A stretch of 64,000 nucleotides of DNA from Halosegnis marinus (GTDB taxonomy: Archaea > Halobacteriota > Halobacteria > Halobacteriales > Haloarculaceae): assembly GCF_029338355.1 (NCBI RefSeq), contig NZ_CP119802.1, forward strand, positions 248,001 to 312,000. Direction: 5' to 3'. Every line of letters begins with the position of its first letter. Within the stretch, counting starts at the first letter, position 1. This document shows positions 44,592-45,866 of this stretch, piece by piece. The notes under the pieces are model-generated. The model had not been told where the DNA came from. It worked only from the letters and a program-made list of their open reading frames with translations, and ran no database searches. Position numbers and translations under genes: made by a program.

Positions 44592-44606
44592 AACGTGCCT
44601 ACTCGT
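44592..44606. repeat. Left copy of 15-bp direct repeat bounding the SDR insert
   Basis: AACGTGCCTACTCGT. Identical to 45852-45866, where it spans the stop codon and last codons of the acyl-CoA ligase gene. It marks the left end of a lower-G+C block. Confidence 0.7.
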
Positions 44607-44640
44607 TGGAATCCTCGGGCTTCGATGGTCTTCCGAGACC

Positions 44641-44657
44641 GTGCTGAATAGAGGGCG
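44641..44657 (+). repeat. Left arm of imperfect inverted repeat inside the insert
   Basis: GTGCTGAATAGAGGGCG. It matches the bottom strand of 45795-45813 apart from a two-base gap, and lies 34 bases inside the left direct repeat. Confidence 0.5.
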
Positions 44658-44680
44658 CGAGGGTATCAGCACCCCTCTCG

Positions 44681-45643
44681 CTAGTTCGGTTCAGGGAGGT
44701 CGAACGAGACCCCCGTGAGGTCTTCGGAGACGTCCCAGAGACGGCGGGCGAGTGTCTCATCGTATGACCGGTCGCTCGACGGCTGGACGACCGGGTCGCC
44801 GTACATGTTCATGAAACCGTCGGGGCCGACGTACTCGCCGCCGTCGATACTCGGGTCGAGGGCGGCGTAGAGCATCGACTCTGCGCCACGTTCGGCGCTC
44901 CGTACGATCACTGCGTTCAGGAGTCTCATCAGCAGGAGGTCGGGTCGGAATCCGCCCTGTGTGGCGCTGTGGTCCAGGAGGTTCGTCTTGGACCCACCCG
45001 GGTGGCAGCCGAGGCTCTTCACGCTCGCCTTCGCCATGCGGAGTCGACGGTCGAGTTCGTATGCAAAGAGGAGGTTCGCGAGTTTCGACTGCCCGTACGC
45101 CCCCCACGCACTGTACGACTCCTCGCCCTGAAGGTCCTCGAAGTCGATATCGGCTTTCCTGTGCCCGGCACTACTCTGCACAACGACACGGGACTCCCCC
45201 GTGGTCTGCTGTAAGACGGGGAGGAGGTGGGCGGTGAGTGCGAAGTGTCCGAGGTGGTTGACGCCGAACTGGTACTCGAATCCCTGTTCGGTCTCCGTGC
45301 GTGGGATAGCCATCACACCCGCGTTGTTACAGAGTACGTCGAGCGCGTCGTACGTCGACGTGAACCACTCGGCGAACGCCGAGACCGACTCGAGGTCCGC
45401 GAGGTCGAGCTCGTTCACTGTCAGTGACGCTCCCGGGACCTCGGCTTCGATTCGCCGTTTCGCGTCCTCGCCGCGCTCGATGCTCCGGCACGCCATCACG
45501 ACGTGTGTACCCTTCTCGGCGAGCCCCTTCGTCACCTCGAAGCCGAGTCCGCTGTTCGCCCCTGTCACCACGGCTGTCCCGACAGCAGGCAGTTCGCCAG
45601 CTACGTCGTCGACTGAATCGGTAGAATCGCGTCGTTCAGACAT
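44681..45643 (-). CDS. SDR oxidoreductase in a lower-G+C insert (retinol-dehydrogenase-like)
   Basis: 320 residues. Extended SDR-type start (TAVVTGANSGLGFEVTKGLA), CRSIERGEDAKRRI, NNAGVMAIPRTETEQGFEYQ, FGVNHLGHFALTAHLLPVL, the catalytic SSAGH and Tyr-x3-Lys in GAYGQSKLANLL. This is the pattern of retinol/WW-domain oxidoreductase-like SDRs. Codons ending in A or T are more common than in neighbours, and G+C is lower (55-67 percent in sampled lines, against about 77 percent in the adjacent ligase). Flanking repeats suggest it was acquired. Substrate unknown. Confidence 0.82.
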   Translation of the reverse strand: MSERRDSTDSVDDVAGELPAVGTAVVTGANSGLGFEVTKGLAEKGTHVVMACRSIERGEDAKRRIEAEVPGASLTVNELDLADLESVSAFAEWFTSTYDALDVLCNNAGVMAIPRTETEQGFEYQFGVNHLGHFALTAHLLPVLQQTTGESRVVVQSSAGHRKADIDFEDLQGEESYSAWGAYGQSKLANLLFAYELDRRLRMAKASVKSLGCHPGGSKTNLLDHSATQGGFRPDLLLMRLLNAVIVRSAERGAESMLYAALDPSIDGGEYVGPDGFMNMYGDPVVQPSSDRSYDETLARRLWDVSEDLTGVSFDLPEPN

Positions 45644-45711
45644 TGGTGATAGGTGCGCGGAGAGACGAAACGAGGTGCAAGCTCATATCAGCGACCATTT
45701 CGTCGGATAGC

Positions 45712-45831
45712 TCACGCCCGCCCGTGCTGGTGATGACTGAGGTTCATCTGGAGGATACAATAGCGTTTGCCAGCAACTAGTTCGTCGATAGACTCGCCCT
45801 CTATATTCAGCACGCGGTATCCGTCAGGCAC
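45712..45831 (-). CDS. Small ORF or gene remnant beside the insert end
   Basis: A 39-codon frame from GTG 45831, MPDGYRVLNIEGESIDELVA then GKRYCILQMNLSHHQHGRA. Codon use is like the SDR insert, not the host. Its first part overlaps the right inverted-repeat arm, whose degenerate left copy would read VLNRGREGI. It could be a tiny gene or the rest of a longer one. No homologue recognised. Confidence 0.3.
   Translation of the reverse strand: MPDGYRVLNIEGESIDELVAGKRYCILQMNLSHHQHGRA
45795..45813 (-). repeat. Right arm of imperfect inverted repeat inside the insert
   Basis: On the bottom strand GTGCTGAATATAGAGGGCG, matching 44641-44657 except for an extra TA. It lies 38 bases inside the right direct repeat. 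Confidence 0.5.
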
Positions 45832-45851
45832 GGAGGGCTTCGAAAGAGCTG

Positions 45852-45866
45852 AACGTGCCTACTCGT
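45852..45866. repeat. Right copy of 15-bp direct repeat, at the 3' end of the acyl-CoA ligase gene
   Basis: AACGTGCCTACTCGT covers the ligase stop codon (45859-45861) and the bases around it. The other copy is at 44592-44606. This is the arrangement left by insertion at a gene end with target or att duplication. Confidence 0.7.

Follow-up and report, generated by a model that had tools for sequence, protein, structure and literature searches.

A single-gene cassette with transposon-type tips and inner cores in Halosegnis marinus, a likely member of a two-layer haloarchaeal mobile system

Introduction

Haloarchaea exchange genes heavily, and we know of no single-gene vehicle of the kind considered here in this group. 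Mobile insertion cassettes, transporter IS and elements of the IS5 family resemble the locus analysed in this study in carrying a passenger gene between inverted ends of insertion sequence type, in their target duplication and in a transposase that is supplied in trans. All of these differ from it in that the haloarchaeal inner cores bound an exchangeable cassette and permit arrays. Passages of PMC7986276 name the transporter IS (tIS) as IS derivatives that carry passenger genes. Elements that lack a transposase and have inverted ends, some with duplications, also occur in Haloquadratum as MITEs and SMRs, but these are described as mostly non-coding and short, and the passages of PMC3119063 that treat them describe no cassette arrays.

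Integrons and superintegrons share with the haloarchaeal arrays their length and directionality, cassettes of mostly a single gene, one conserved junction site and a tyrosine recombinase, whereas the haloarchaeal site has two dissimilar cores and the arrays sit between transposon tips. Integrons are known in other archaea, and the main text of the paper on them contains neither ‘Halobact’ nor ‘haloarchaea’ (PMC9668308). The word ‘cassette’ is missing from the main text of a review of archaeal tyrosine recombinases (PMC8371274). No description of the present cassettes or arrays was found in the open-licence literature, which does not prove their absence elsewhere; they form a family that is widespread in salt-loving archaea and apparently undescribed.

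The DNA analysed here is a 64,000-nucleotide stretch of the Halosegnis marinus genome (the window), in which a preliminary description made from the sequence had pointed to a block of lower G+C content at 44592-45866. In our view, this block is likely to be a unit with a single cassette that belongs to a mobile system of two layers in haloarchaea.

Results and Discussion

The observation of the block was confirmed. It is flanked by a 15-bp direct repeat (44592-44606 and 45852-45866) with the stop codon of the ligase gene inside the right copy, it carries an SDR open reading frame on the minus strand (44681-45643), and it has inverted arms at 44640-44667 and 45787-45814 (28 nt, 82% complementary), all as had been described. 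The claimed differences in composition also held: G+C is 0.62-0.64 inside and 0.69-0.75 outside in 500-bp windows, a drop of approximately 0.10, and the codon distance of the SDR gene to four neighbouring genes is 0.26-0.31 compared with 0.14-0.18 among the neighbours themselves. The GC3 of the SDR gene is 0.79, that of the four neighbours 0.94-0.96. Two of the earlier claims required amendment. The 15-bp repeat is real, and its best interpretation is a target duplication of 8 bp, AACGTGCC, extended by 7 bases that also match. The arms are real but are not the ends of the element, which are formed by outer tips approximately 40 bp farther out. The parts of the element are as follows.

44592..44599, no strand: left 8-bp target-site duplication, AACGTGCC
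44600..44640, plus strand: left terminal tip, long type, first bases degenerate
44641..44667, plus strand: A core, GTGCTGAATAGAGGGCGCGAGGGTATC
44681..45643, minus strand: cargo SDR oxidoreductase, 320 aa (PF00106; best NCBIfam match NF004846, 348.6 bits, cut-off 268)
45787..45813, minus strand: B core, GTGCTGAATATAGAGGGCGAGTCTATC
45814..45851, minus strand: right terminal tip, short type
45852..45859, no strand: right 8-bp target-site duplication, AACGTGCC, overlapping the ligase stop codon
44600..45851, minus strand: whole element, 1,252 bp, with the minus-strand order short tip, B core, SDR, A core, long tip

Each end thus consists of a tip of the GGCTCTGTTGAAA type and an inner core (GTGCTGAATA...), and the tips of the window element are degenerate. 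The A and B cores have similar arms (GATAC / GTATTCAGCAC) and unlike 7-bp centres (GCGCNCT in A, AGAGGRT in B), with B before the gene and A after it. Holding a 320-aa open reading frame, the element is not short and non-coding in the manner of a MITE. The 15-bp repeat on its own is not unusual in the window, across which there are 16 exact direct repeats of at least 15 bp within 2 kb, the block’s own among them; the element’s pair of ends, unlike this repeat, exceeds chance.

A search for further copies of the arms, which the preliminary description had proposed, found the core GTGCTGAATA six times in the host genome, twice at the block, and its reversed control not at all. The other host copies have longer ends, in which an outer tip like GGCTCTGTTGAAATCCTCAG (approximately 37-42 nt in all) is followed by the arm, and the arm pattern GTGCTGAATANAGRG is present in 46 of 97 genomes of relatives. 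A model built from 36 ends, including the two of the window, gave nine matches in the host genome and matches in 161 of the 243 genomes of the order (E ≤ 1e-8); in this survey, and in that of array sites below, at most 17 matches per genome were scored. Both ends of the block match the model (E 1.5e-12 and 7.9e-12), values that are not independent, since two of the 36 training rows are the block’s own ends.

Pairing of opposite ends yielded 99 pairs, of which 55 entered the duplication test after removal of those with no outer tip, too near the end of a locus or present as identical copies. A perfect 8-bp duplication lay directly outside both tips (offset 0) in 24 of the 55 inverted end pairs, compared with none of 2,000 pairings in which left and right flanks were combined at random and the same 25 offsets were allowed. 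Given this difference, we take the ends to be transposon ends and the window element to span 44600-45851; its own perfect duplication sits one base in (offset 1,1). A target duplication of constant length is what would be expected of a non-autonomous element of the IS5 family. Direct evidence of movement comes from a BASS-transporter cassette, 98.4% identical, that stands at two sites with different duplications, GTTCATGT in L226 and GTACATCC in L256. The tip family and its duplications are established by these sequence comparisons, and the transposition layer is well supported.

As to the insertion site, the proposed look for empty sites in relatives was answered in part: no exact one was found, because two congeners (G001, G005) carry another gene between purD and the ligase gene. 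We take this gene, from its sequence, to be a histidine kinase (L110, L111). Within the material examined, the SDR gene did not occur at the same place without the repeat.

The preliminary description had guessed at a non-autonomous cargo unit, a guess that gains support from the tip family with its 8-bp duplications and from the existence of IS5-family elements that share both features. Where elements that have such tips and duplicate 8 bp carry a transposase gene, its product is a 273-aa enzyme of the IS5 family (PF01609, 64 bits; NF033579, 210 bits, cut-off 140). L177 has the transposase inside, the same tips and a perfect 8-bp duplication, and its terminal inverted repeats, those of an autonomous IS5 element, are common to the cassette; more such elements were judged from their flanking ends by eye. 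Some of the IS5-type elements hold a passenger gene (L177, L284, L289), which is presumably acetyltransferase-like in L284 and pilin-like in L289. One IS5-type element (L086/L295, genome G074) has a tip-plus-core end of the cassette kind and the duplication AGGGCCAA, as read from its flanks, and its close relative in a genome of the same genus (G002) is the L289 element with the pilin-like gene. In the first layer of the proposed system, then, the outer tips of IS5 type would allow a single cassette or an entire array to insert as one unit and to duplicate 8 bp of the target. An IS5 enzyme provided in trans may act as transposase on the cassette tips, and transposition at this level would carry units to new places.

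The sole IS5 relative found in the host genome is a transposase that is 41% identical; it is intact and adjoins an HNH-like gene on contig C2 (L288 1842-2666). The IS6 family was also considered as mover, sharing the 8-bp duplication and a GG...CTGT tip, and was rejected: its transposase (PF13610) is absent from the host genome, and among 30 IS6 loci of the surveyed genomes, those with readable ends have other tips, such as GGCACTGTCTAGTT.

The tips, the 8-bp duplications and the autonomous IS5 elements with passenger genes would all be accounted for if the transposition layer were the only one, the block being an ordinary mobile insertion cassette whose cores are subterminal parts of its ends, and arrays being nested insertions. 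The arrays speak against this. Cassette junctions within them consist of one site of approximately 97 bp with two cores approximately 44 nt apart; they are without tips, and the 44-nt gap and the orientation are fixed. A model of 25 such sites found matches in 139 of 243 genomes (E ≤ 1e-6), and 670 kb of shuffled DNA contained no match of at least 14 bits. Site directions were counted in nine array stretches, weak half-sites included. They are uniform in 34 of 35 sites over 37 kb in G188, in 9/9 in G139, 8/8 in G160b, 7/7 in G261 and 6/6 in G112, and mostly so in G098 (9/11) and Haloarcula marina (8/10); G254 has 12 minus followed by 7 plus sites and G160a two of each. Of the adjacent full sites (134 distinct ones in all) that lie no more than 3 kb apart, 73 pairs have the same orientation and a single pair the opposite one. 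Both the arrays and the orientation of their sites can be regarded as established.

Array runs for which tips were found mostly start at a short tip and finish at a long one, an order that makes the window element an array of one. Inspection by eye of the tips that bound long arrays revealed no duplications that match, a point against the two-layer reading. The A centre is predominantly GCGC plus three bases (98 readable sites) and the B centre predominantly AGAGGAT or AGAGGGT, eight each among 26 readable sites; the unequal numbers of centres reflect the search patterns used.

Comparison of the same cassette in different places shows where sequence identity stops. A search of 392 genomes of the order with the whole block gave one near copy, in a genome of another family (G374), which is 95% identical over window positions 44642-45815. 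In an alignment by single bases, identity is 0.87-0.96 over the stretch that the cores bound (0.87-0.93 in core and non-coding parts) and 0.47 and 0.51 in the tips, which are of the same two types in both genomes despite this low identity. The inspected flanks of the G374 copy hold no matching duplication. The suggestion to look for the SDR gene as a cassette elsewhere is thereby borne out, with the same cassette from core to core between different tips. An SRPBCC cassette of the host is likewise 97.9% identical to one on a Haloarcula marina plasmid, and identity again ends at the cores: on one side a tip in one genome stands against an array junction in the other, and on the other side a short tip against a long tip. 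In further pairs, counted without copies at the same locus, most boundaries fall between model positions 63 and 73 (B side) and between 20 and 28 (A side), the exceptions being L317/L196 (65, 41), L352/L349 (84, 20) and L145/L081 (89, 30).

That the block is a resident gene of low G+C content with chance repeats has in its favour that 15-bp repeats are common in the window. This reading is already contradicted by the duplications around end pairs and by the core-to-core match in another family, and the presence of like ends in 161 of 243 genomes also opposes it, so that we give it almost no credence. Nor is a transposition layer by itself a likely explanation, given array junctions without tips, the fixed gap and orientation, and cassettes whose boundaries fall at the cores while the tips differ.

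We return to a system of two layers. The 44-nt spacer between the cores is not carried along with the cassette, which would not be predicted of a single crossover within the spacer. In the second layer, crossovers at the B core and the A core that bound a gene would exchange it between different elements and arrays. Since the cores share inverted arms and have different centres, each core would be expected to pair with its own kind, A or B. Crossovers at both cores would then replace the cassette without disturbing tips or spacer, in agreement with the observed boundaries; it is from this pattern of spacers and tips that we infer the double crossover.

The preliminary description had also suggested an integrase-mediated cassette, and this second guess finds support in the arrays with their double-core site and in a recombinase encoded between half-sites, which may be the enzyme concerned. 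A 234-aa tyrosine recombinase (PF00589) adjoins the sites, and WP_254274372.1 of Haloarcula marina is an example of the enzyme; R65, R184, W207 and Y216 are invariant in eight of its sequences, and the motif histidine is replaced in one. On plasmids, a half-site lies no more than 100 bp away in six of nine loci of this recombinase clade, usually with the A half upstream and the B half downstream; of the remaining loci, one has a site at 332 bp, one at 656 bp and one has none. Nine control plasmid loci with distant integrases include none with a half-site within 100 bp and none with one nearer than 3.6 kb. In the set of genome loci, which overlaps in part with that of plasmid loci, half-sites lie within 120 bp in 14 of 18 clade members and in neither of two distant ones. 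This placement between half-sites, too, argues against the transposition layer alone. The enzyme of the second layer is probably the tyrosine recombinase whose gene is flanked by A and B halves in the arrays of other species, and it may act at the cores.

The distribution of the clade counts against this reading, since 19 of 243 genomes contain it (E ≤ 1e-50) and 139 have sites; at this threshold it was found neither in the host genome nor in G188, the genome with the largest array. Counts per genome from the site-model and recombinase surveys were used to examine co-occurrence. Sites are present in 17 of the 19 clade-bearing genomes and 122 of the 224 others (Fisher p 0.003), and at least 10 sites in 8 of 19 and 18 of 224, respectively (p 2e-4). 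Since neither enzyme clade was found in the host genome, the unit is probably stranded, or resident, there. Short tyrosine recombinases of a distant clade, encoded on haloarchaeal plasmids (L371-L375), stand repeatedly beside large DNA methyltransferase genes, with a BREX PglX gene beyond the methyltransferase in two cases.

The main rival to a role for the recombinase is host recombination: both layers would be real, and exchange would proceed by homologous or microhomology-mediated recombination at the cores, with the recombinase only inserting at the site. The boundaries do lie at the most conserved stretches, and the recombinase is far rarer than the sites, both of which favour this explanation. 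It does not sit well with the near-uniform orientation of sites (73 to 1), nor with cores that consist of inverted arms around a short centre, which is the layout expected of a tyrosine recombinase site. We regard host recombination as a serious possibility, though short of an even one, and keep site-specific exchange as the working interpretation of the second layer.

Directional arrays of single-gene cassettes (34/35 sites in G188, 9/9 in G139, 8/8 in G160b), a conserved joining site and a tyrosine recombinase might suggest that the system is an integron. Single strands of two array sites, however, fold no better than shuffles into a hairpin of attC type (z 0.87, 0.67, -0.24 and 0.40, both strands), which argues against an integron and not against a double-strand site. 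The recombinase scores 22.5 bits against the integron integrase model TIGR02249 (cut-off 265), placing it outside that family, and gene direction is random relative to the site (36/70), so that cassette genes do not mostly follow it. Integron descent was rejected on the hairpin and recombinase results, and an integron as such seems to us highly improbable.

Our reading is of an integron-like cassette system, not an integron, on IS5-type transposons, and the SDR copy would have arrived at the present locus by the two-layer route. The stronger proposition is that haloarchaea possess a gene-cassette system that evolved in convergence with integrons, with a double-crossover swap at two dissimilar tyrosine-recombinase sites (A and B), arrays of up to approximately 30 genes and IS5-type ends, of which the window would hold a one-cassette outpost; we consider the case for it evenly balanced. 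To our knowledge, dual-site cassette exchange is known solely as a laboratory method (recombinase-mediated cassette exchange). If the A/B mechanism is true, nature employs it as well, and integron-like gene storage evolved independently in Archaea. With a searchable site, a candidate recombinase and a candidate transposase, the question can be tested in laboratory strains.

The cargo varies between elements. In the host genome it comprises, besides the SDR gene, which is presumably expressed, a 315-aa membrane protein without Pfam hit, a CAAX protease-like protein and an SRPBCC protein; the membrane protein we would liken to GIDE from its sequence. These three lie in a second, multi-cassette stretch (L037 2843-6006; host C1:740842-744005) that has one full array site at C1:741969-742061 and in which the SRPBCC unit has two short tips. 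Other genomes have cassettes with a GDT1 transporter, HEAT repeats, an acetyltransferase and a BASS-type transporter, the last named by sequence reading and record annotation, as well as proteins that we take, from their sequences, to be of the HNH and NUDIX types. A Pfam scan of 20 of the 70 parsed cassette proteins, 16 of which matched (one is from an IS605-type transposase gene), added methyltransferases, RibD_C, glyoxalase, P450, CNNM and L-PSP endoribonuclease. A relative of the BASS-transporter cassette on a Haloferax lucentense plasmid (L312) is annotated as an arsenic resistance protein and adjoins merA.

Two negative results also weigh against the two-layer reading. None of 29 loci with other SDR relatives lies inside such ends, and one has a separate small element nearby; in G013, the motif near an SDR relative belongs to a separate 379-bp element beside the gene. 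A pattern for a short one-core element matched none of 392 genomes, and one 107-bp one-core example is present in L153. Elements of the tip family of 379-383 bp occur in two genera (L112 3052-3431, L123 2203-2586). On the Halobacterium sp. DL1 plasmid CP007061, a cas6 gene has another small family member directly upstream (L314 2046-2493), whose 8-bp duplication, gatgaact, is perfect.
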